From positions 62,001 to 126,000 of the forward strand of contig JAHDBD010000003.1 in the NCBI GenBank assembly GCA_020630575.1: a DNA stretch of 64,000 nt, in the 5' to 3' direction. Origin of the DNA: Bernardetia sp. Its GTDB lineage: Bacteria > Bacteroidota > Bacteroidia > Cytophagales > Bernardetiaceae. The notes under the pieces were generated by a model, which worked only from the letters and a program-made list of their open reading frames with translations, was not told where the DNA came from and did no database searches. Below are positions 40,724 through 59,187 of the stretch, piece after piece. Numbering within the stretch: the stretch's first letter is position 1; each line of letters opens with the position of its first letter. A program made the position numbers and the translations under genes.

Positions 40724-41000
40724 TTTTTTGAGTGTAAATTATTTTATGAAGTACAAAATTAAAAATTTTTAGCTCATTTCTCATATCTATTTCATTTATA
40801 TTTTATCCATTGGTTCATTTGGATTAAAAAAAAGTATTAGAAAATGATTCTTTTTTAGAATAGAGCTTTTTTGAGTGTAAATTATTTTATGAAGTACAAA
40901 ATTAAAAATTTTTAGCTCATTTCTTATATCTATTTCATTTATATTTTGCTCCTTGATTTAGATGGATCAAAAAAATAGAGTAGAAAATGATTATTTTTTC
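40724..41000. repeat. 143-base tandem duplication in the pse/gmk divergent spacer
   Basis: The spacer of 396 bases holds two copies of a unit starting TTTTTTGAGTGTAAATTA: copy 1 from 40724 and copy 2 from 40867. The first ~80 bases differ at only one position (C/T); the rest of the unit is degraded but still alignable (ATTAGAAAATGATT versus AGTAGAAAATGATT). Each copy contains, on the minus strand, a TAATTTTG box (complement of 40754-40761 and 40897-40904) that fits the -7 consensus, so the promoter region of the polysaccharide operon may be duplicated. No good -33 is seen. On the plus strand TAATTTTG at 41002-41009 may be the -7 box of gmk. Confidence 0.75.
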
Positions 41001-41092
41001 GTAATTTTGTATGTAAACACTTGCAAAGAAAGTCAAAACTGCATCATTAAAAATCAGTTATAACTAGGTAAGCAATTACTTTACAACCATCT

Positions 41093-41707
41093 ATGAGCCA
41101 AAAATTAATTATTTTTTCTGCCCCTTCTGGAGCTGGCAAAACTACCATCGTCAAACATCTACTAGGTGTTTATCCTGAAATTCTGAGTTTTTCAATCTCT
41201 GCTACTACTCGCTCACCTCGTTCTTATGAAAAACCAAATAAAGACTATTATTTTATTTCTGTTGATGAATTCATTAAAAAAATGACAAATGATGAATTTA
41301 TAGAACACGAACAAGTTTATGACGGACTTTATTATGGAACATTACGAAGTGAGGTCGAACGCCTTTGGAGTCAAGGACAAGTTGTCGTTTTTGATGTAGA
41401 TGTAAAAGGAGGTGTTGCTCTCAAACAAGAATTTGGAGATGCTGCATTAGCCGTTTTTGTAAAACCACCTTCTATCAAAGAACTTAGAAAGAGACTATTG
41501 TCTCGCAAAACAGAAACCGATGAAACCCTCAAAGCACGAGTAGAAAAAGCTGAAATAGAAATGGAGTTTGCTCCTTTTTTTGATGAAGTTGTTATTAATG
41601 ATTCACTTAGTGAAGCCTTAGATTTTAGCGAAAAAATAGTAGAAGAGTTTATCTTAAAAAAGCCAAACCACAATCATCACCAACATCATAAAAATACAAC
41701 TCTATGA
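41093..41707 (+). CDS. gmk: Guanylate kinase
   Basis: 204 residues. Phosphorylates GMP (and dGMP) with ATP. P-loop IIFSAPSGAGKTTIVKHLL (res ~6-24), GMP-binding segment SFSISATTRSPRSYEKPNKD followed by YYFISVDEF, EHEQVYDGLYYGT, VVFDVDVKGGVALKQ and the lid arginines (ELRKRLLSRKTETDETLKAR). A His-rich tail (NHNHHQHHKN) precedes the stop and might bind metal or be neutral; it is an unusual end for the family. The stop overlaps the nadD start by four bases (ATGA), so the two are translationally coupled. Confidence 0.96.
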   Translation: MSQKLIIFSAPSGAGKTTIVKHLLGVYPEILSFSISATTRSPRSYEKPNKDYYFISVDEFIKKMTNDEFIEHEQVYDGLYYGTLRSEVERLWSQGQVVVFDVDVKGGVALKQEFGDAALAVFVKPPSIKELRKRLLSRKTETDETLKARVEKAEIEMEFAPFFDEVVINDSLSEALDFSEKIVEEFILKKPNHNHHQHHKNTTL

Positions 41708-42276
41708 AAATAGGTCTTTATTTTGGTTCATTCAATCCCATTCATGTTGGTCATTTGATTACTGCTAACACAATGGCAGAAAATACAGATTTAGATCAAG
41801 TTTGGTTTGTTGTTTCGCCTCACAATCCACACAAAAAAAAATCTTCACTTCTCCATGAATTTGATAGGTATGATATGGTGCGCTTGGCGATAGCTGATAA
41901 TGAAAAACTAAGTGTAAGTGATATAGAGTTTAGTTTGCCCAAGCCAAGCTATACTATAGATACACTGACATATATTCAAGAAAAGTACCCCAATTATCAC
42001 TTTCAAATTTTAATAGGAGAGGATAATCTCACACATTTTCATAAGTGGAAAAATCATGAGCAGATTTTGGAATATTATGGTGTTTTGGTTTATCCAAGAG
42101 ATGGAACTCCAAAAACAGAGTTTCATAACCACCCAAAAATAAAATTTGTAGAAGCTCCTTTATTAAATATTTCGGCTACTTATATTAGAGAACTTATCAA
42201 GACTGAAAAATCTATTCGCTATCTTGTTCCAGAAGAAGTAGAAGTTTTGATTCGTTCAAAGAAATTTTATTTATAG
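41704..42276 (+). CDS. nadD: Nicotinate-nucleotide adenylyltransferase
   Basis: 190 residues. Makes deamido-NAD from nicotinate mononucleotide and ATP. GLYFGSFNPIHVGHLITA holds the nucleotidyltransferase HxGH motif (~res 16-19), and ISATYIRELIKT is the second ATP-binding signature (ISxTxIR, ~res 159-165). PHNPHKKKSSLLHEFDRYDM and PSYTIDTLTY are NadD-specific. Coupled to gmk by a 4-base overlap. It ends 107 bases before the promoter-like sequence of the retron region. Confidence 0.95.
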   Translation: MKIGLYFGSFNPIHVGHLITANTMAENTDLDQVWFVVSPHNPHKKKSSLLHEFDRYDMVRLAIADNEKLSVSDIEFSLPKPSYTIDTLTYIQEKYPNYHFQILIGEDNLTHFHKWKNHEQILEYYGVLVYPRDGTPKTEFHNHPKIKFVEAPLLNISATYIRELIKTEKSIRYLVPEEVEVLIRSKKFYL

Positions 42277-42359
42277 AATGTAGCCTTAAACTTTGGTAAG
42301 AGCTAAAATGTGCTAGAAATTTCAGTTTCTGAAAAAAACGTGAAAATTTTAGCAAATGT

Positions 42360-42390
42360 TTTGCAGGTTAGAAATTTATTCTTACCTTTG
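42360..42390 (+). promoter_or_regulatory. Bacteroidota promoter of the retron RNA, TTTG-N19-TACCTTTG
   Basis: TTTG at 42360-42363, then exactly 19 bases, then TACCTTTG at 42383-42390, the best match to the Bacteroidota consensus seen in this window. The start would lie near 42396, just before an 8-bp hairpin and the a1 arm of the first retron RNA unit. No second such box precedes the second unit, so both units are probably on one transcript. Confidence 0.65.
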
Positions 42391-42395
42391 AAGCA

Positions 42396-42419
42396 TAGAA
42401 ACACAAAAGGCTGTTTCTA
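42396..42419 (+). ncRNA. 5' hairpin at the predicted start of the retron transcript
   Basis: TAGAAACA-CAAAAGGC-TGTTTCTA forms an 8-bp perfect stem with an 8-base loop at the very start of the predicted RNA, three bases before the a1 arm. It is not repeated before unit B. It may protect the 5' end. Not a known retron element that I can name. Confidence 0.5.
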
Positions 42420-42420
42420 A

Positions 42421-42664
42421 TAAAAATACAGTAGTTATAAATACCTTGCTTTCTAAGTTTATTCTTAGAACGAATGATGTTTCGTCATTCAAGAACTTTT
42501 ACATAGCATACACCACTACATACTATCTTTATGATGACTAACTACTACCTATACGCCATTTACGGTTTGAGTGCGTTGCACTTAAATAGCGTATAGGTAG
42601 TGTTAGTCTGGAGTTGATAGATATAGTCCTCAGATAATACGAAGATTTTATAACTGTATTTTTA
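42421..42664 (+). ncRNA. Retron msr-msd RNA, unit A
   Basis: Template/primer RNA for the reverse transcriptase at 43266. Elements read directly: a1 arm 42422-42447 complementary to a2 arm 42641-42663 (AAAAATACAG with CTGTATTTTT, TTATAAA with TTTATAA, CTT with AAG); msr hairpin 1 TTCTAAG/CTTAGAA at 42451-42470; hairpin 2 GAATGA/TCATTC at 42472-42490; then the long msd stem, 42536-42556 pairing with 42589-42608 (20 pairs, one bulged base), closed by an inner hairpin around AGTGC-GTT-GCACT (42570-42582). The segment 42609-42640 is identical to unit B. Arm divergence with kept pairing between units A and B supports a functional structure. The branching guanosine and exact cDNA ends cannot be fixed from sequence alone. 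Confidence 0.85.
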
Positions 42665-42699
42665 TAATTTCATTGAAAAAATAAAATAGCAGCTCATAG

Positions 42700-42945
42700 T
42701 AGCTTTAATAATAGCAATGAATACCTTGCTTTCTAAGTTTTGTTCTTAGAACGAATGATGTTTCGTCATTCAAGAACTTTTACACAACATACATCACTAC
42801 ATACTATCTTTAAGATGACTAACTAACTACTAGTAGTCATTTACGGTATAAGTGCGCTGCACTTAAATAACTACTAGTAGTTGTTAGTCTGGAGTTGATA
42901 GATATAGTCCTCAGATAATACGAAGGTTTTCAAAACTATTTTTAA
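42700..42945 (+). ncRNA. Retron msr-msd RNA, unit B (second copy)
   Basis: Second homologous unit, offset 280 bases from A. Arms a1 (42706-42727) and a2 (42923-42944) differ in sequence from those of A but pair with each other: ACCTT/AAGGT, TGAA/TTCA, ATAG/CTAT. Hairpin 1 TTCTAAG/CTTAGAA and hairpin 2 GAATGA/TCATTC are unchanged. The msd stem 42817-42837 with 42870-42889 has a wholly different upper half (ACTACTAGTAGT in place of CTACCTATACGC) yet is again fully paired except one bulge; the inner hairpin is TAAGTGC-GCT-GCACTTA. There is no separate promoter match, so co-transcription with A is likely. RT open frame follows about 320 bases later. Confidence 0.85.
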
Positions 42946-43265
42946 ATAAAAAATAAAAAAAAGAGAGAGTTTAACTACTCAAATCTTTATGCACTTCTAT
43001 GTGCAACTCATCTGTCATTGTTTGAGATTCTCACCAATGATAGATAATAACAAACAAACAAATAGAAATTAATTAGTCTTTTTTAGCTTTTACACCTTAG
43101 TAAATTACCATTTTTTTTATTTAGATTAGCATTTAATCTAGTAAAAATGTTTTTTTTGCTATGTCATTTTTTGCTGAATAATTTTTAATTCAAGCAATTT
43201 CATTTTCTTATATTTTTATTTTTTATAAGAAATTGGAAAAAGTTGCCAAATTAACCTATTTGTTT

Positions 43266-44882
43266 ATGTCAATGACCCGTCAACAACTCTACGACCGAAT
43301 TCGTGCTACCTCAAAAGAAGACTACATTTTAACAGAAATGAAGCGATTAGGATTTTGGGGAGATTCTGAAAAACCAACTCTTGCTGAAGAACTTATCAAT
43401 AGACAAGCAAGTCTTCGAAAAGAACTCGCAGAACTCACTCAAAAACAAAGACAATACGACAGCAGAGAAGCCATGCTAAAACAAATGCGTCTTGAACGCA
43501 TGAAAGCTTCCAAAGAAAAACAGAAAGAAACAAAAGCCAAAAACGAAGAAAAACGAAGAATAAAAGCTGAAAAATGGGCAGAAACCCAAAAATCAAATAT
43601 TATTTATTTGGGTGGAGAAGTTTCTAAAGGTCTTAATAATACTCTTTCAGATAAAGAAAAGCTAGACAAACTCAACCTTCCTTATTTTGAGAATATTGTA
43701 GAATTTTCTACAATAATAAATAAGCCTATTTCAGAACTTCGCTTCTTAGCTTTTCAACGCTCAGTTTCTAAAGTTAATCAATATCATAATTATTACGTTC
43801 CAAAAAAATCAGGTGGAAAACGCCTTATTTCTGCACCAAAGCCAAAACTAAAAGCCACTCAAAATTGGATTAAAGCAAACATTTTAGATAAAATTGAAGC
43901 TAATTCAACTGTTCATGGTTTTGTAAAAGAACGTTCTATTCTGACAAATGCAGAGCCACATCAAAATAAAAACTTAGTCATTAGTTTAGATTTAAAAGAC
44001 TTTTTTCCTTCTATTTCCTACAAAAGAGTAAAAGGACTTTTTCTCAAATTTGGCTATTCCGAACAATTATCGACACTTTTTGCACTTCTGACTACCCACA
44101 ACGAAACTGATAAATTAAGTGTCGATGGAGAGGTTTATTATGCTCAAAAGGTAGATAAAGAAACAGGAAAAACAAATCGCTTCCTTCCTCAAGGTTCGCC
44201 TGCCAGTCCTGCTATTACTACACTCATTGCATATAAAATGGATAAACGTTTGGAAGGACTTGCCAAAAAAATGGGCTTTACTTACACTCGTTATGCTGAT
44301 GATTTGACTTTTTCTTCTGACTTAGATTTAAAAAAGGATGCAAAAAGTACAGATAAAATCATTGGTTCATTGCTTTATTTTGTCAAAAAAGTAGTAAACA
44401 GCGAAGGTTTTGAAGTTCATCCAGACAAAACGCACATTATGCGAAAAGGAAATCAGCAAAAAGTTACAGGAATTATTGTCAATGAAAATGCTGATAATAA
44501 ATTAGGAATTGACAGAAAAACAATCCGAAAATTCAGAGCTTTTTTACATCAAACTTCTAAAACAGGTTGGAAAATAGATAAGTATGCAAAAGATAAGAAG
44601 TGGGGAATTCATTCTGATCCAAAACAAGCAGCTCTAGGTTTTGCCTCTTTTATTAAAATGGTAGATACCAAAAAAGGAGAGAAATTTATAGAACAAATAA
44701 ACTCTATTCCTAATGCAGAAAATTATGTTGAAAATGCTGTTTTAGAAAATCCTACTCGTGCATTCGTTTCTGAGGAAAAGAATGATAAACAAGCTATTGG
44801 GTTAAATCAAAATCAAACAGAAGAACAAAATCAAGAAATAGAAAATCAATCAAATGAATCGGATTGGTGGGATATTTTTTAA
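43266..44882 (+). CDS. Retron reverse transcriptase
   Basis: 538 residues if the ATG at 43266 (MSMTRQQLYDRIR) is used; the frame is open from 43233. Domains: an N-terminal helical region, a Lys/Glu-rich coiled coil (~res 40-105) that is longer than in compact retron RTs, then the RT. Retron signatures are all present: NAEPHQNKNLVISLDLKDFF (NAxxH motif followed by catalytic motif A Asp), LPQGSPASPAITTLIAYKMD (motif B), TRYADDLTFSSDLD (catalytic YADD), and HIMRKGNQQKVTGIIVNE (VTG motif for msr-msd recognition). The C-terminal thumb/specificity region is followed by an acidic Asn/Gln/Glu tail. It would prime cDNA on the tandem RNA units upstream. Downstream genes encode the WGR and SWIM proteins, 108 and then 110 bases apart. 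Confidence 0.95.
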   Translation: MSMTRQQLYDRIRATSKEDYILTEMKRLGFWGDSEKPTLAEELINRQASLRKELAELTQKQRQYDSREAMLKQMRLERMKASKEKQKETKAKNEEKRRIKAEKWAETQKSNIIYLGGEVSKGLNNTLSDKEKLDKLNLPYFENIVEFSTIINKPISELRFLAFQRSVSKVNQYHNYYVPKKSGGKRLISAPKPKLKATQNWIKANILDKIEANSTVHGFVKERSILTNAEPHQNKNLVISLDLKDFFPSISYKRVKGLFLKFGYSEQLSTLFALLTTHNETDKLSVDGEVYYAQKVDKETGKTNRFLPQGSPASPAITTLIAYKMDKRLEGLAKKMGFTYTRYADDLTFSSDLDLKKDAKSTDKIIGSLLYFVKKVVNSEGFEVHPDKTHIMRKGNQQKVTGIIVNENADNKLGIDRKTIRKFRAFLHQTSKTGWKIDKYAKDKKWGIHSDPKQAALGFASFIKMVDTKKGEKFIEQINSIPNAENYVENAVLENPTRAFVSEEKNDKQAIGLNQNQTEEQNQEIENQSNESDWWDIF

Positions 44883-44952
44883 AAAACATTATTTTTTAAA
44901 CTAAATTATTTCTCGTTTTACAAATCATTCTTATCTAAAAATAAAGAGTTAT

Positions 44953-44982
44953 TTCGTAATTCGTAATTTTTAATTCGTAATT
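44953..44982. repeat. TTCGTAATT repeat between RT and WGR genes
   Basis: Three TTCGTAATT units, in the order unit, adjacent unit and a third after TTTTTAA. It matches the right arm of the inverted repeat at 2082-2111, where the same three units occur in the other order. It lies in the short spacer just before the WGR gene start. Confidence 0.55.
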
Positions 44983-44990
44983 GAAATAAT

Positions 44991-47900
44991 ATGAAATTAA
45001 TAGAACAAAGCAAACTCTTTTTTAAGCAAGGAAATTCGGATAAAGTCTATGAAATCGACCTTTGTGAAGTCGGAACAGATTTGTATGTAGTCAATTTCAG
45101 GTTTGGAAAACGAGGCGCAAATCTAAAGGACGGAACAAAAACGCCTTCTCCAGTAGGAAAAATAAAAGCACAAGCCGTTTTTACATCCTTAGAAACTGAA
45201 AAAACGAAAAAAGGCTACAAAAAAGAAAGTCAGTCAAAACAGAAAAAAGAAAAAGTTTTTCCATCTTCAATTTCTTCAAAAGAAGAAGCTATTTTGCAGC
45301 GTTTGAGAGAAGCTGTAAATAAAATAAATAGTCCAAATGAAGAACAGAAAAGTATTTTTAAATCAGAATGGAAAACAGGTAGAGTAGCTTGGCAAGTTGG
45401 TGAGCTAAAACTAAAATCAGCTATTCCTTTTTTAGTTGAATTAATTGAAAAAGATAATAGTTTGGAAACGGTAGAGATTTATTCTATTCTTTGGGCATTG
45501 GTGCGCTGTCAAGATGCGCAAGCAATTTCAATTTTTGAAACTTATGCCAATACTACTAAACATCCTGACCATATCAAAAAGATAGCGAAAGAAGGATTGA
45601 TGAGTGTAAATTTTGATGAAAAAATAGAAGCTCAATCACAAGCTAAAATTAATACAATTGCGAATTTAGTACAGAGTTTGCCTCCAATTATTCAAGAATA
45701 TACATTAAATCAAGATACAAAAGGGTTAGAAAAAGAAATTCAGTTAAGAATAAAAGAAAAACAAAGCGATTTTCAGTTTTTAGAAACACTTTATTTGCTC
45801 GTACACGTGTATCCGTTTTTGCAAAAAGTAGTTCTAGAAACGCTTACTCCTGCACCCCTCAATTCTTTATACAAGGATAAACAGGATATACTAACTTTAC
45901 GTCCTCCATTTTTTAAATACATTCGCTCAATTTATAAGTTGGCAGAACTTCGTGAAGATATTCGAATCTTGGGTTTGCTTTCTTATCTCTTTGAAAAATC
46001 AACAGCGATGTATCGCCACACAAATGTTAAAGAAGATACAGCTAGAAATAACTGGTATTATTCGTACAGCGTAAGAAAATATATTCCTGAAATCAATCAG
46101 CAGATTCCAGATGTTACAAAGGAAGTCAAGAACAAAAACTCAAGAATTGGATTTTCAGAACAAACAAAAGCCTATTTTCAACGCAGAGATTTGAAGAGAT
46201 TGAGAAACTATGCCACTCAAAGCGAAGATGAGAATAATAATTATGTCAAACTAGCAACTTCTATTCTCCTTTCTTATGAAAAAATGTTGAGTAAAGTTCA
46301 TTATTTCAGACCTGCTAGTTACCCAACTTGGGATAGAAATACTAGAAAATACACTCATACTTTTTATACACATCCAGATTATTGTAACTCTTTGCTATTA
46401 CATTTGATATTGAATGGAAATAACAATGAAATGGAATTAGCTGGTAATGTGTGGCGCTATAAAGAAAAAGTTACGATAGTTTCAGATAGTTGGTATGCAC
46501 AGCCAACTGCTCAAAATGAGCAACCTTCTAGTTTGCAACGAATAATGTTTTTTAACAGAAAAACACTTCAAGAACAAAAAGAATTTCATAAAGGAGACAA
46601 AAGAACAGAGTTTTTTCCTCAAAAATGGGATGCTCTGCCACAGGCTTATGTTCAACTTTTAGTAGAAGCAAAACTAGATAGTATACATGAGTTTGCCTAT
46701 AAAAATCTCAAAGTACATTCAGAGTATGAAAATATAATTGCAAAATTTGATGTGAAACTTTTGAAAAAACTAATTTCTTCTGATTTTGAAATTCCTGCAC
46801 TTTTTGGAGTAGAAATATGTAAGGATAAATTAAATGAAAATTTTGATAAAGAATTGACTTTGGTTCTTTTAAACTCAAAACTAGAAGAAGGACGAAGATT
46901 AGCAAAAGAAATCATAGAAAAGAACAGCCAAGAATTTACAAAAGATGTAAACTTTACACTTTTTGTCTCTGAGCTTATTTTTAATCAATATATAGATATC
47001 CGAAGCTGGATAAACCAGTTTTTACAAACTATTCCTTTATCAACTGAGAAATGGCAGATTATTGTAGGAAAAGCAATTTCTGAGATGCTTAGTACAGATA
47101 AAAATTATTCTACTTTTTTACTTAAAGATGCTCAAAACATATTGAAAGCAAACGCAAAGTCTGTTTTAGAAAATGTAGGTTGGAATATTGTTTTGGAGCT
47201 TTTGGAAGACGCAAACCTTCAAAATCAAGTTTTTGCAAGTGATATTTTGCTTATTAAATCTAAACTCATAAAGGCAACTGATATTCCTTTTTCTATTTTG
47301 AATGGATTTTTTGAGAGTAAATCAGAAGAAATACGAGCAAATGGAATGGAAATTTTTGCAGATTATCCTGAAAGCGCACTTTTAGAAGCGCATCAGCTTT
47401 TAGGAAATATGCTTATTTCTCCGTATCAAAATTTAAGAAGTTCGGCAACTGAAATTGTCAAAAAACTGATTCAAAATAAAGTCAATCAAAACTCAAAAGA
47501 AGGAAAAGAGTTTTCTAAATCTATTGTAACAAAATTAGTTTTGGCTCTTCGTAAAAAAGACCCAGAAGAAATAAAACGAGAAGAAGCTGCAAGAATAAAA
47601 GCAGAACAAGAAAAACAAAATAAAGAAAATGGAAATAAATCTGAAATTCAAAGTGATGGTTCTGATTTAGAACAATTAAGTGTTCATAAAGAAATTGCAG
47701 AGCTTTTAATCAATCATTTTGATTCTTATTTGTCAAATGTTACACTCAAAACGACGCTTAATCTTCTTCATGGAAATTACAGAGAAGGACAATTTGTAGG
47801 TTTTCATATTCTCAAAAATCATATTATTCCAAACAAAGAAAAAGAAGAAATTTCTATTCGTCAGATTGTCGCCTTAGCAGCTCATGAACTTTTAGAAATT

Positions 47901-48500
47901 CGTAGCTGGACATTGGAGTATTATCAAAATAATCTTGCTCGTATTCGTTACGAACGTGATGAAGCCTTACGAATTTTAGATGCAAAATGGGATGATGTTC
48001 GCCAAAAAGCAATGGCATTTTTTAGAGAAAACTTCACAGAAAACGATTGGGATGTAGATAGTTTGGTTTCGATTGCTGATTCAGTTCGTCCAGATGTAGA
48101 AGCATTTGGAAAAGAACTCATTACAAAATTCTTTGAAGAAAAAGATGGAGAGAAATATCTCACTATGCTTAGTCAGCATCCAAGTAATTCGATGCAGCTT
48201 TTTGCAACCAATTATTTAGAACGTTTTGCAACTGGAAATCTAGAGCGTTTGAAAGAAATGGAATTTTATTTCCGTTGTGTTTTGATGCAAGTCAATAAAG
48301 GAAGAATTGCAAAAGATAGAGTTTTAGAGTTTTTAGAAAAAGAGGCTTTATCTTCAAAAGAAACTGCTTTTTGGGTTGTTCCATTGTTTAATGATTTGGT
48401 GGCTACAAGTGCCGTTCAAGACAAAGAGCGATTTATTCAGATTCTTCAAAAACTAAAAGTGAAATATGAGAATTTGAAAGTGGCTTTAGTTTTTGAATAA
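44991..48500 (+). CDS. WGR-domain, helical-repeat protein of the retron operon
   Basis: 1169 residues. The N-terminus is a WGR domain (~res 1-80): QSKLFFKQGNSDKVYEIDLC and NFRFGKRGANLKDGTKTP with the GxxG(A) core; such domains occur in PARPs and bind nucleic-acid ends. The rest is almost all alpha-helical with HEAT/ARM-like pairs, for example AIPFLVELIEKDNSLETVEI (res ~141) and the C-terminal EVRSWTLEYYQ-like repeats EIRSWTLEYYQNNLARIRYE and LDAKWDDVRQKAMAFFREN. No catalytic motif is recognised. It is the second gene of the retron operon. I recall that published retron surveys list a type with an ARM-repeat protein and a winged-helix SWIM protein (type XIII in my memory); this should be treated as unverified. 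Likely the effector or a sensor of the system. Confidence 0.85.
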   Translation: MKLIEQSKLFFKQGNSDKVYEIDLCEVGTDLYVVNFRFGKRGANLKDGTKTPSPVGKIKAQAVFTSLETEKTKKGYKKESQSKQKKEKVFPSSISSKEEAILQRLREAVNKINSPNEEQKSIFKSEWKTGRVAWQVGELKLKSAIPFLVELIEKDNSLETVEIYSILWALVRCQDAQAISIFETYANTTKHPDHIKKIAKEGLMSVNFDEKIEAQSQAKINTIANLVQSLPPIIQEYTLNQDTKGLEKEIQLRIKEKQSDFQFLETLYLLVHVYPFLQKVVLETLTPAPLNSLYKDKQDILTLRPPFFKYIRSIYKLAELREDIRILGLLSYLFEKSTAMYRHTNVKEDTARNNWYYSYSVRKYIPEINQQIPDVTKEVKNKNSRIGFSEQTKAYFQRRDLKRLRNYATQSEDENNNYVKLATSILLSYEKMLSKVHYFRPASYPTWDRNTRKYTHTFYTHPDYCNSLLLHLILNGNNNEMELAGNVWRYKEKVTIVSDSWYAQPTAQNEQPSSLQRIMFFNRKTLQEQKEFHKGDKRTEFFPQKWDALPQAYVQLLVEAKLDSIHEFAYKNLKVHSEYENIIAKFDVKLLKKLISSDFEIPALFGVEICKDKLNENFDKELTLVLLNSKLEEGRRLAKEIIEKNSQEFTKDVNFTLFVSELIFNQYIDIRSWINQFLQTIPLSTEKWQIIVGKAISEMLSTDKNYSTFLLKDAQNILKANAKSVLENVGWNIVLELLEDANLQNQVFASDILLIKSKLIKATDIPFSILNGFFESKSEEIRANGMEIFADYPESALLEAHQLLGNMLISPYQNLRSSATEIVKKLIQNKVNQNSKEGKEFSKSIVTKLVLALRKKDPEEIKREEAARIKAEQEKQNKENGNKSEIQSDGSDLEQLSVHKEIAELLINHFDSYLSNVTLKTTLNLLHGNYREGQFVGFHILKNHIIPNKEKEEISIRQIVALAAHELLEIRSWTLEYYQNNLARIRYERDEALRILDAKWDDVRQKAMAFFRENFTENDWDVDSLVSIADSVRPDVEAFGKELITKFFEEKDGEKYLTMLSQHPSNSMQLFATNYLERFATGNLERLKEMEFYFRCVLMQVNKGRIAKDRVLEFLEKEALSSKETAFWVVPLFNDLVATSAVQDKERFIQILQKLKVKYENLKVALVFE

Positions 48501-48610: not shown

Positions 48611-50293
48611 ATGCTTTTCGAATATAAATACGGTGGCAACACCAACATCATAAATAACTCAGAGCAGACTTCTATGTCTTTTGCTCCTGATGCGCTGCGT
48701 GAACCTACTTTTTTCGTAGGAAAATTAGATAAAAAAATAAATTTTCGTGAAGCTATTTCTGCGCTTCATCATGTGGTAGTTTCAGATTTGCGTTTCAAAC
48801 CCAAAGACAAAACAGAATATAAGGCGTGGGCAGAAAAGCAAGAACAAATTTGGCTTGCCGAATATATGGAATCCTTTCAGATTGAAGAAGTAAAAGCTAA
48901 AACTGAAAAAGTCAGAAAGGAATTAAACGAATCCTATAAAGAAAGTGGGAAGATTTTAGAGCCTTACTACAAAGCACAACGTGAATATTTCAAATATCTC
49001 TATGAAAAAGATAAAGATGCTTGGTTTGTTCTTGACCCTGTAATTACGGTTCATCCAGACGAGGTGTTTTTTGAGTGTTTTAGTCAAGATGAATCTACTT
49101 ATGGCAAGCTAAGTTGTAGTTATAATGTATTCAAAGAAATAAATGAGTTTGAATGTGGAACTACAAATGTAGATTATTCAGCTACTTTATATAATGAATT
49201 TCAAAAGATTCGTAATTATAAAGAAACAGATTTTAAAATTGACCCAAGTGGCTTTGAGGTTCAGACGACCAATGAAGACAGCTATAAAGAGGTTAAAATT
49301 GATTTGCCTGATACGTGGGTACGAGGGTTTTTGCAAGTTAGTTCTGCTATGACCCTTCCTTCGACTACACTAGATTTACATCCAATGGATATTTTTAGTC
49401 TGTGTCAGTTTTTGAGAAGATTTAAGGAGAAAAAAAGTCCTCGTTCGTTGCGTTTTGTGTTAGAACCAAATCAACCTATCAAAATAATTATTGAGCCTTG
49501 GAACAAGGAATTAGTCTTTAATCGTTCGATTTATACAGGACACGAATCTAAAGAAATTCGTATTTGGGGAAGAAGACGTATTTTGATTTTGGAAAGATTG
49601 ATTCCAGTAGCCAAAAATTTCAAACTTGTTTTGCTCGGTTCTGGATTACCTTCATTTTTTATAGCTGAATTAGAATCAGATATGACTTTTACGCTTGGTC
49701 TTTCGGGTTGGACTTCTAATGATTGGTCAAGAGCTGGGAATTTTGATTTGATGGCACCAAGAAGTGAAGTAGATGATTTTACCAAAAAAACAGTATTCAA
49801 TGCACTCAAACAAAATTGGTTTGAAAGCTCGGCATCACTTGCTCGTCGTTTAAATTTAGATACAAAAACGGTTTCTTCTGCCCTTGCTGCCTACACACAA
49901 GCAGGACGAGTTATTTATGATTTGAAAATGGGCGTTTATCGTGTTCGTGAGCTTTCGAAAGACCCTTTGCCAATGGATAAACTGCGTTTTGCTAGTGAAG
50001 AAGAAGAAAAAGCAACACGTTTTATCAAAAATAATGGCGTACAAGTAGAAGTTGATACGACAAATGTCGTCAATAAAGATGGCGAAAAAAGTGAACGAAT
50101 TGTTTTGAAAGGCAGAGTAAGAGATAGAAATACAACCTATCCAACGCTTGTTCAGATAGATAATGATGAACGAATTGTAGATGCTAGTTGTGAATGTAAT
50201 TTTTACAAAATGAATAACCTTCGAAAAGGAGCTTGTGAACACATGTTGGCTACACGAATGTATTTTAATGAAGTAAAAATGGAGAAGGTTTGA
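48611..50293 (+). CDS. Winged-helix/SWIM zinc-finger protein of the retron operon
   Basis: 560 residues, third gene of the retron operon. A long N-terminal region of unknown fold (~res 1-380) is followed by a winged-helix segment (~res 393-445; KTVFNALKQNWFESSASLAR, NLDTKTVSSALAAYTQAGRV) and a SWIM zinc finger (~res 500-555) with VDASCECNFYK and KGACEHMLATRMYF, i.e. CxCxnCxH. SWIM and winged-helix domains bind DNA or proteins, so this protein may recognise the retron cDNA or its target. It has no visible nuclease motif. A clear terminator at 50329-50374 closes the operon. Function as effector, antidote or accessory cannot be decided from sequence. Confidence 0.85.
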   Translation: MLFEYKYGGNTNIINNSEQTSMSFAPDALREPTFFVGKLDKKINFREAISALHHVVVSDLRFKPKDKTEYKAWAEKQEQIWLAEYMESFQIEEVKAKTEKVRKELNESYKESGKILEPYYKAQREYFKYLYEKDKDAWFVLDPVITVHPDEVFFECFSQDESTYGKLSCSYNVFKEINEFECGTTNVDYSATLYNEFQKIRNYKETDFKIDPSGFEVQTTNEDSYKEVKIDLPDTWVRGFLQVSSAMTLPSTTLDLHPMDIFSLCQFLRRFKEKKSPRSLRFVLEPNQPIKIIIEPWNKELVFNRSIYTGHESKEIRIWGRRRILILERLIPVAKNFKLVLLGSGLPSFFIAELESDMTFTLGLSGWTSNDWSRAGNFDLMAPRSEVDDFTKKTVFNALKQNWFESSASLARRLNLDTKTVSSALAAYTQAGRVIYDLKMGVYRVRELSKDPLPMDKLRFASEEEEKATRFIKNNGVQVEVDTTNVVNKDGEKSERIVLKGRVRDRNTTYPTLVQIDNDERIVDASCECNFYKMNNLRKGACEHMLATRMYFNEVKMEKV

Positions 50294-55683: not shown

Positions 55684-58600
55684 ATGGATAATAAAGAAAG
55701 AAAGAAACCAGAACAGGTTTTGTGGCTTGAGGAACAGCTTGGATTTGAACTTAGAGAAGTGAAGACTGAAAAAGAAATACTAAATTGGCTAAATGGTCAG
55801 TCTTATTTGCTTAACGAAAAACAGGAATTAAGAGCGTTAAGCCTATATGGATGTAATCTTGCGAATATTTCTTTTTTGTTAGAGTTTAAAGATTTGATAC
55901 TTCTAAATCTTGGAGCTAATCAAATTTCAGATATTTCTATTTTATCAACCTTAAAAGAATTAACTACTTTAAGTCTTGGAGCTAATCAAATTTCAGATAT
56001 TTCGCCTTTACTAGATCTAAAAAAATTAACATATTTAGATATTAGTGTCAATTCATTTTTAGATATAGATATATATTTACTACCAAGTCTAAAAAATTTA
56101 ACATACTTAGACTTTAGTGCTAATCAAATTTTAGATTATTCTCCTTTGTCAGAATTAGAAAATTTAACATCTTTAAAATTATATGATGCTCATGTTTCTG
56201 ATTACAGTTTTTTATTGAAATTACATAATTTAACTTTCTTAAATATTCGTGATAGTCAAGTTTCAGATATATCTGCGTTAGCAAGTATGAATAATTTGTC
56301 AGTAATAGATCTAAGTAGTAATGAAATTTCAGACATTTCAGTTTTAGCAAATCTTAAAAAGTTGTCCAACTTAAACCTTAGTTATAATAAAATATCTGAT
56401 ATTTCTTTTTTATCAGAGTTAAAAAACTTAACCGATTTAAGTATTAGTTCTAATAATATTTCAGATATTACTGTTCTAGGAACATTAGAAAAGTTGATAG
56501 ATTTGGATATTAGTTATTTAGATATTAACAATGATACCATTCAAAATGTATTTGTAAAGTTAAAAGACTTAACTCATTTAAGAATTGTTGGAAATAGTTT
56601 TTCAGATGTGTCTTTTTTATCAAAATTAGAAAAGATAAGTTATTTGAATCTCAATGATAATCAAATTTCAGACTTATCTCCTTTAATGAAACTGAAAAAA
56701 TTAACTGATTTAGAACTTAACATAAACGAAATTACAGATATTTCTCCCTTAGCAGAACTAGGTAATTTAAAAGAACTAGAAGTTAGTTATAACAAAATAA
56801 AAGATATTTCTTGTTTAGCAGACCTAAAAAAAATTACTTTTTTAAATCTTTCTAATAATAAAATTTGTAGTACAAAAGGTTTGAAAGAAATAGTAGAAAA
56901 TGAAAGTATAGAACATTTACGTTTAGAAGATAATCCTATTCCCTATTTACCTCAAGAGTTAATTAAAGAACACTGCCTCCCACACCTAAGAAATTACTAC
57001 CAAAACCAAGATTTTGTACCTAATAAAGAAATAAAAGTAGTCATTTTAGGTAATGGAATGGTAGGAAAAAGTACGCTTTTGAATCGTTTTTTGAATCCTA
57101 CTGGCGATTGGGAAAAAGAAATACAAATAGATATTAGCGACCGTACAGAGGGAATTGTAATAAAAGAAAATATTCCTTTTGATTTGGAAGACGACAAAGA
57201 AATAAGATTGAATATTTGGGATTTTGGAGGACAAGAAGTTTATCATGGAACGCATCGTCTTTTTCTGAATAAAGATGCTGTTTATATTATTGTTTGGACA
57301 TTGGAAACGGACGAACAAAAAGAAGAAATCCGTCAAGATTTGCATTATTGGTTAGATTATGCACAAGATTTGGCTATTGATAGTCCTATAATTTTGGTGC
57401 ATAGTCAGTGCGATAAAGAAAGTGAAAAAGACCAAGATAAAATAGATGAGCAAATAGATATTTTGAGAGATTCAAAATATAAAAATAGTATTACAACACG
57501 TTATTTAAAATTTTCTGCTAAAGAAAAAACAGGAATTAAAGAATTAAACAAAGCCATTAAAAAAGCCATAAAGGATAAACTTTCGGCTAGAGTAGAAACA
57601 GAAATTCCTAAAAAATGGTCGTTTTTGCGTGATGATTTGAGAGAATTAAGAAAAGATACAGAAAATAAAAAAGATAAGATAAATGAAATTTCGAAAAAAG
57701 ATTATCAAGCTATTTGTGATAAATACGAAATAAGTGAATCAGAAGCCGAAACAGTTCTTACTTTTTTGCACCGAACAGGCTTTTTATATTACGATACACA
57801 ATTATCAGATAATATTATTCTCAATCAGACGTGGGCAATAGAAGCCATTTATGAAGCCTTAAAACCGAGTGGCTTAGTAAAAGATAAAAATGGAAAAATA
57901 AGCTCTGATAGATTAAAAAGACTTTGGCAAGAAAGGGGATATTCAAAAAAAGAAGCCAAAACCTTTATTGATTTTATGTTGAGTTCTGAAATTTGTTTTT
58001 GTAAGGAACAGCAAAATTATAGAGAATTAGAAAATCCTACTTTTATTGTTCCTCATTATTTAGAAGAGCCAGCAAACTCATTTACTAGGTGGAGATATGA
58101 AAATAGTTTTTATATGATTTACAAACCTCAATTTTTTCATAAGGGAATTGCAGAGCGTTTTTTAAGTCGTTTAGGACGCTTGAGTAAAGAAACTGATTTA
58201 TGGAGAGATGGAATACGTATTTTTAGTGATACGTTTAAAGGCGAAGCATTAATTATTTTTGATAGAGAAAAGAAAGAAGTCAATATTTCTACTGAAAACT
58301 ATGAGCTTTTGAAAGCCATAGAAAAAGAACTCAATAAAATTTTAGATGAAGGTTCACAAACTAAGCCTTCTGAAAAAGTTACGTTTTTTTATTCGCTTGA
58401 TGGAGAGGAGTTTGTGGAAAAGAAAAAACTGATGACACAGATTCAAGACGGAAATCAATTTGTAAGAACAGTAAACAACAAAAAAGTAGAAGTAAAAGAC
58501 TTTGCAGAAAAATATAGATTAAAAGAACCTCAAAAAACTATTTCTGAAAAACCTTATTTTGAAGAAAACAGAAAACAAGCTAAGAATCCACTTATTGAGG

Positions 58601-59187
58601 AAGCAAATAACAAGAAAAACCCTATTGCTATGAAACAGAATTTAGAAATAAATGAAGAAGGAAAAAAGAAAATTAAGATTTTTATATCTTATTCTAGCAA
58701 AGACAGGGAAATAAGAGAACTGTTTGTAGAAGAGTTACAAACTCATTTGGCACATCGTAAAAACTTTGAGTATTCACAATGGACTGATACAGAAATTGAT
58801 TTAGGTGCAGATTGGGAAGAAGAAATAAATAAAGCTCTAAAAGAGAGTAACGTAGCTATTTTATTAGTTAGTGCTAATTTTGCAGCCTCATCTTTTATAA
58901 ATGAAAAGGAATTAACAGCCTTCTTTAAGAAACGAAAAGAGGAAGGATATTTAATTTTGCCTGTCTTAATCACAAAGTACAATTTTTCTCAATTTGAGAA
59001 GTTGAGTAAACTGAATTTTTTTAAGACTTATAATAGGGAATATGGTTTTAATAAACCTATAGAGAGAAATAAATTACTTCATTTCGCAAAATTGGCTGAA
59101 AACGAAAATACAACCAACGAACAATTAAGTATATATTTTAATAAACTAGCTGATTTTGTTGATACTTCTGTTTCTAATACATTTTGA
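55684..59187 (+). CDS. LRR-Roc-COR-TIR protein (Roco GTPase with TIR domain)
   Basis: 1167 residues. Order: short N-terminus; about 16 leucine-rich repeats of 22 residues (~res 45-415; units like LTTLSLGANQISDISPLLDL, SDS22/internalin type); Roc GTPase (~res 445-620) with P-loop VVILGNGMVGKSTLLNRFL, switch LNIWDFGGQEVYHGTHRLF and HSQCDKESEKD; COR dimerisation domain (~res 640-930); a linker; and a C-terminal TIR domain (~res 992-1135) starting IKIFISYSSKDREIRELF. The TIR helix SFINEKELTAF carries a Glu (~res 1073) at the place of the NADase catalytic residue. Roco proteins with TIR tails are rare; bacterial TIR domains often degrade NAD after infection sensing, which suggests an immune role with the LRR as sensor. 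Not proven. No adjacent partner. Confidence 0.9.
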   Translation: MDNKERKKPEQVLWLEEQLGFELREVKTEKEILNWLNGQSYLLNEKQELRALSLYGCNLANISFLLEFKDLILLNLGANQISDISILSTLKELTTLSLGANQISDISPLLDLKKLTYLDISVNSFLDIDIYLLPSLKNLTYLDFSANQILDYSPLSELENLTSLKLYDAHVSDYSFLLKLHNLTFLNIRDSQVSDISALASMNNLSVIDLSSNEISDISVLANLKKLSNLNLSYNKISDISFLSELKNLTDLSISSNNISDITVLGTLEKLIDLDISYLDINNDTIQNVFVKLKDLTHLRIVGNSFSDVSFLSKLEKISYLNLNDNQISDLSPLMKLKKLTDLELNINEITDISPLAELGNLKELEVSYNKIKDISCLADLKKITFLNLSNNKICSTKGLKEIVENESIEHLRLEDNPIPYLPQELIKEHCLPHLRNYYQNQDFVPNKEIKVVILGNGMVGKSTLLNRFLNPTGDWEKEIQIDISDRTEGIVIKENIPFDLEDDKEIRLNIWDFGGQEVYHGTHRLFLNKDAVYIIVWTLETDEQKEEIRQDLHYWLDYAQDLAIDSPIILVHSQCDKESEKDQDKIDEQIDILRDSKYKNSITTRYLKFSAKEKTGIKELNKAIKKAIKDKLSARVETEIPKKWSFLRDDLRELRKDTENKKDKINEISKKDYQAICDKYEISESEAETVLTFLHRTGFLYYDTQLSDNIILNQTWAIEAIYEALKPSGLVKDKNGKISSDRLKRLWQERGYSKKEAKTFIDFMLSSEICFCKEQQNYRELENPTFIVPHYLEEPANSFTRWRYENSFYMIYKPQFFHKGIAERFLSRLGRLSKETDLWRDGIRIFSDTFKGEALIIFDREKKEVNISTENYELLKAIEKELNKILDEGSQTKPSEKVTFFYSLDGEEFVEKKKLMTQIQDGNQFVRTVNNKKVEVKDFAEKYRLKEPQKTISEKPYFEENRKQAKNPLIEEANNKKNPIAMKQNLEINEEGKKKIKIFISYSSKDREIRELFVEELQTHLAHRKNFEYSQWTDTEIDLGADWEEEINKALKESNVAILLVSANFAASSFINEKELTAFFKKRKEEGYLILPVLITKYNFSQFEKLSKLNFFKTYNREYGFNKPIERNKLLHFAKLAENENTTNEQLSIYFNKLADFVDTSVSNTF

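Follow-up and report, generated by a model that had tools for sequence, protein, structure and literature searches.

The window analysed here is a 64,000-nt stretch of the Bernardetia sp. assembly GCA_020630575.1 (contig JAHDBD010000003.1, positions 62,001 to 126,000), and it carries a type XIII retron, presumably an anti-phage system, in which two homologous msr-msd RNA units lie in tandem ahead of a single reverse transcriptase (RT) gene. The units share most of their sequence and differ in the upper stem of msd. Judged from sequence, the one RT probably makes several distinct DNA hairpins, which perhaps sense different phage signals.

The RT translation carries the YADD, NAEPH and VTG motifs of retron-type RTs, and its best PADLOC model is clade XIII (558.8 bits vs 277.1 for the next; type XIII models after Mestre et al. 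2020). Its ATG start at 43266 is conserved in relatives, and the longest frame begins at TTG 43233. The two accessory genes of type XIII, encoding the WGR/HEAT-ARM and SWIM proteins, are also present (Table 1), and by these profile matches the locus is a complete type XIII retron of RT, WGR/HEAT and SWIM genes. The set is flanked by nadD and an LD-carboxypeptidase gene. Genomes and loci are labelled here with G and L numbers; G463 is of the same species as the window and G425, G412, G437 and G488 are of the same genus. G463, G412 and G488 likewise have nadD upstream, and the carboxypeptidase gene recurs in G412 and in G488 (locus L004); these shared flanks therefore indicate a locus inherited in place.

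Two RNA units before one reverse transcriptase

The initial annotation, made from the sequence alone, placed two homologous units about 280 bases apart before one RT. They were recovered as direct repeats (42421-42665 and 42704-42946) with 280-281 bp spacing, aligning over 192 nt at 87% and a further 29 nt at 90% identity. Both units are predicted to fold into paired end arms (a1/a2, strong in unit 1 and weak in unit 2), two short hairpins and one long msd hairpin, the general anatomy of a retron RNA adjoining its RT. Predicted energies are -72.7 kcal/mol (z -6.65) for unit 1 and -66.8 kcal/mol (z -5.45) for unit 2, both far below the shuffled sequences, none of which equalled either. Folded as single-stranded DNA, the msd regions of both units take the same hairpin shape. 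The candidate site of 2'-5' RT-DNA joining, assigned by analogy, is the G of the TTGC after a1, which is invariant in the alignments.

Over the ten units of the window genus, 97.0% of the core cells are paired, vs 28-45% for slid structures, and there are 14 two-sided pair changes, a number reached by 0 of 500 shuffles. The upper msd stems of the two window units covary in exactly the arms where the annotation had seen both sides change together. Covariation is also found in msr, for hairpin 1 within the genus and for hairpin 2 in the model alignment A3.

An Rfam scan of 41000-45500 gave no match up to E 1. An independent covariance model, R1, rests on 19 type XIII RNAs, all from single-unit loci outside the window genus; its alignment has compensated changes at 41 of the 46 pairs and pairing in 92.5% of the cells, vs 34-47% for slid versions. 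R1 matches the window exactly twice, at the two unit cores (Table 1), and has no further match in the whole genome. Because R1 finds both at near-equal score, the two units are full family members and equally well preserved; the RNA anatomy of both is well supported, and the claim that they are two structured RNAs was upheld.

A pattern scan of 42.3-43.3 kb gave a single match to the Bacteroidetes-type promoter, upstream of unit 1, with none between the units, where no terminator-like site was found either. The match stands at the same place in G463, G425, G412 and G488, and in G437 with a variant first box. With this arrangement, one promoter ahead of unit 1 probably drives both units. The two units have different a1/a2 ends; cognate pairing is favoured in G425 (-11.2 and -11.8 vs -5.4 and -7.0) and in G412 (-13.5 and -13.7 vs -5.3 and -9.0), and is not favoured in G441.

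Table 1. Features of the type XIII retron locus (positions in the window)
Feature	Position	Strand	Basis and remarks
Bacteroidetes-type promoter match, TTTG-N19-TACCTTTG	42360-42390	+	Pattern scan
Unit 1 a1 arm	42421-42441	+	Fold; pairs with 42647-42664; duplex -15.0 kcal/mol
Unit 1 msr-msd core	42437-42649	+	Model R1, 144.2 bits, E 3.1e-34
Unit 1 candidate branching G	42448	+	Within invariant TTGC; by analogy
Unit 1 msr hairpins 1 (42451-42470) and 2 (42472-42490)	42451-42490	+	Fold
Unit 1 upper msd stem 5' arm, type A	42536-42556	+	Genus covariation, stem comparison
Unit 1 upper msd stem 3' arm	42589-42608	+	Genus covariation
Unit 1 a2 arm	42647-42664	+	Fold
Unit 2 a1 arm	42704-42721	+	Fold; weak interrupted helix with 42929-42946, -7.1 kcal/mol; non-cognate as good
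Unit 2 msr-msd core	42717-42930	+	Model R1, 142.2 bits, E 9.3e-34
Unit 2 candidate branching G	42728	+	TTGC after a1; by analogy
Unit 2 msr hairpins 1 and 2	42731-42771	+	Fold
Unit 2 upper msd stem 5' arm, type B	42817-42837	+	Genus covariation, stem comparison
Unit 2 upper msd stem 3' arm	42870-42889	+	Genus covariation
Unit 2 a2 arm	42929-42946	+	Fold
Type XIII retron reverse transcriptase	43266-44882	+	PADLOC RT_XIII 2.7e-168; Pfam RVT_1 8e-25
WGR-domain / HEAT-ARM protein of type XIII	44991-48500	+	WGR_XIII 1.9e-300
SWIM zinc-finger protein of type XIII	48611-50293	+	SWIM_XIII 3.4e-238

Tandem units and their stems in type XIII retrons

Loci around type XIII RTs were surveyed by iterated profile search, and the RNA is present upstream of the RT in 38 of them, counting the window, whose three proteins match the type XIII models as well. 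Most loci (31/38) have a single unit, the usual though not defining state of one msr-msd per RT, whereas the window and six others have two or three with differing msd stems: two in the window, G463, G425, G412, G441 and G406, and three in G497. The annotation had called a dual-RNA retron unusual; the window is not a one-off, since the tandem state recurs in related type XIII retrons. Four other multi-unit genomes were checked by profile or by gene layout (WGR and SWIM genes) and have the full type XIII gene set. With contigs of 4-5 Mb in several of the assemblies, assembly error does not account for the arrays. On the RT tree, in which rows L005 and L006, read in the wrong frame, were disregarded, G497, G441 and the window genus form one clade (91/85), G441 and the genus group at 100/99, and G406 lies outside.

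No RNA unit was found by profile search upstream of several far RTs and of the G464 RT (L069), which is of type XIII and 55% identical to that of the window; about 4 kb upstream of it was covered. A Polyangiaceae (Myxococcota) record, L011, holds a type XIII RT with an RNA unit (112.8 bits) far outside Bacteroidota, and may represent a transfer or a mis-binned contig. Searches of phages and viral contigs gave no type XIII RT, and a plasmid gave one match, full-length and 41% identical.

Units of the same genome have scaffolds that are 92.7-100% identical and msd regions at 61-84% (91% for units 2 and 3 of G497; G406, whose second unit lacks the anchor, is excluded), and both arms stay complementary. 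Between genomes the order is reversed. The type A msd of window unit 1 is 99% identical to that of G437 with scaffolds at 87%, and the type B msd of window unit 2 is 96% identical to that of G412 unit 1 with scaffolds at 90%, the difference being a compensated pair. The unit 2 core is 100% identical in G463, and G412 unit 2 has a third stem, type C, whose loop stem has changed too. Site patterns in the scaffold group units by genome in three comparisons (3, 8 and 13 sites, with 0-1 for the alternatives). In msd, 8 sites against 0 place the units of the window and G425 together by unit, and 12 connect G412 unit 1 with window unit 2, sites in the two arms of one stem not being independent.

The scaffolds thus look homogenised within each genome while distinct stems are retained, and the simplest account of these alignments would be an old array whose scaffolds were kept alike by gene conversion and whose different stems were retained. 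Homologous genomes might instead have shown one copy as a decayed duplicate that no longer pairs; the multi-unit relatives keep both arms complementary, and with tandem units recurring and separate stem types persisting from species to species, decay is unlikely.

In many type XIII RNAs (L005-L046) the upper msd stem has, close to its loop, a common core resembling TAC(C)TA[TG]; examples are CCACCTATACG in L045, a distant relative, and CTACCTATACG in unit 1 of the window. This core may reflect common descent or a recognition site. A palindrome or operator motif in the stems was considered and rejected, the enrichment being slight (mean 3.57 vs 3.37 shuffled, 9/500 permutations) and the sequences related; single palindrome-like cases are ACTACTAGTAGT in window unit 2 and GTACTATAGTAC in L013. 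A phage origin of the stems was likewise rejected, as the 18-base type A arm has a single viral hit, on a contig that is no retron and at about chance level, and the type B arm has none.

One reverse transcriptase and probably several DNA hairpins

The explanation that we favour, and regard as fairly probable, is that one RT served by tandem msr-msd RNAs makes two (or three) multicopy single-stranded DNAs (msDNAs) whose different duplexes would serve as different recognition sites for one effector complex. The single promoter upstream of unit 1 would place both RNAs on one transcript, each with its own a1/a2 ends and the common scaffold of msr and lower msd. One RT should bind and copy both units, because the parts expected to bind it are alike, and this would yield a pair of msDNAs told apart by the upper duplex of their msd hairpins. 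By analogy with other retrons, the complex of RT and msDNA would restrain the WGR/HEAT and SWIM effectors, which would become active once a phage factor had acted on the msDNA; two duplexes would let one effector complex answer two signals, or still work if a phage evades one. We infer co-transcription, the two msDNAs, effector inhibition and dual sensing from the sequences and from retrons studied so far, in which msDNA gates the effector or keeps it in check (PMC13158370). A motif in the reverse-transcribed DNA can set the trigger: in Retron-Asa1 and Retron-Squ1 the short msd motif GATC brings a response to a phage adenine methyltransferase (PMC12548924). These two parallel the stem-specific sensing proposed for the window, but they have one RNA each and belong to other retron types, and no GATC occurs in the window unit stems.

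Several observations weigh against this explanation. G437 and G488 have one unit each despite belonging to the genus, and assembly collapse was rejected as the reason, the G437 contig running from the promoter region through a single unit to the RT gene. The a1/a2 arms had been described as changed while still pairing, which holds well for unit 1 (-15.0 kcal/mol vs -5.0 with the a2 of the other unit) and is weak for unit 2, where the cognate arm is not favoured (-7.1 vs -7.0 kcal/mol). The msDNA sequence of some retrons can vary without loss of defence (PMC13158370). The window stems yielded no trigger or recognised motif, and a literature search for type XIII retron function found no paper.

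An unlikely but serious competitor to the old array with conversion holds that each genome duplicated its unit separately and recently and imported stems from other strains by recombination. The single units of G437 and G488 suit it, as does the single G488 unit in detail, whose a1 resembles unit 1 and whose a2 resembles unit 2, as expected of an unduplicated ancestor or of a collapsed array, and a tree cannot tell duplication with import from conversion. However, stem types A and B are found in several species in one and the same chromosomal position, behind nadD, and the RTs of the multi-unit loci G497 and G441 and of the genus fall in a single clade, which is more in keeping with an old array that was later lost in places. 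Separate duplication leads, in any case, to the same functional reading as the favoured explanation.

We think it rather improbable that the paired stem changes come from mutation, with one arm copied onto the other by hairpin-templated repair or template switching, instead of from selection for pairing. Both are established processes at imperfect palindromes, changes in the stems almost always involve both sides, and G-U occurs in 0 of 194 paired cells of the genus. Yet such copying leaves unexplained both the persistence of types A and B over species with homogenised scaffolds and the covariation of the msr hairpins. The G-U shortage, which had also been tried and rejected as a sign of selection at the DNA level, is not significant against the msr hairpins once one fixed U-G column is removed (p 0.39).

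Dosage is an improbable explanation, in which the second unit merely raises the amount of msDNA and the stem sequence drifts freely while pairing is kept. Tandem duplication is a common route to higher dosage, and pairing is indeed kept though the stem sequences differ, but the stems are not freely drifting, being better conserved across genomes than their scaffolds in both type A and type B, and homogenisation reaches the scaffold and spares the stem in G412, G425, G441 and G497. That one unit is active and the other a decaying or occasionally used duplicate is very unlikely: the weak a1/a2 pairing of unit 2 and its lack of a promoter, the lower score of the first G406 unit (74.1 vs 113.4 bits) and the single-unit genomes of the genus speak for it, and the like scores of the window units, the compensated pair in the unit 2 type stem and the unit 2 core unchanged in G463 speak against it.

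Known systems, neighbouring genes and significance

Ec86/Eco1, Eco2, Eco8 and Sen2 share with the window the a1/a2 arms, the conserved G after a1, the msr hairpins, the long msd stem, an RT with VTG and YADD, and adjoining effector genes; unlike the window, they have one msr-msd per RT and other effectors. A literature search for tandem or multiple retron RNAs or type XIII retrons returned nothing relevant; the main surveys (10.1093/nar/gkaa1149; 10.1038/s41587-024-02384-z) were outside its reach, and an earlier mention is possible.

A few kb from the retron, window positions 55684-59187 (+) encode a 1167-aa protein with leucine-rich repeats, a Roc-COR GTPase and a C-terminal TIR domain with a weak ThsB-like match, a possible second defence gene. 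The genome also holds a second retron-type RT (L002 1276-2793, G000 contig C41), whose best PADLOC match is RT_III-A (2.7e-142) and which has about 160 extra C-terminal residues, and a 785-aa RT (L003 445-2802, G000 contig C57) matching PADLOC RT_UG37 of the DRT group (2.3e-147).

For the family as a whole we put forward a generalisation with some doubt: some type XIII retrons may use several templates, two or three RNAs in an array, with gene conversion holding the RT-binding scaffold constant and selection maintaining unlike msd duplexes, which would give one effector complex several msDNA sensors. Arrays that differ just in the stem, within one cell and with one RT and one effector, offer a ready-made test of stem recognition and phage specificity. 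If both units are copied, they would also exemplify in nature how one RT can produce several single-stranded DNAs, something of use to editing tools.
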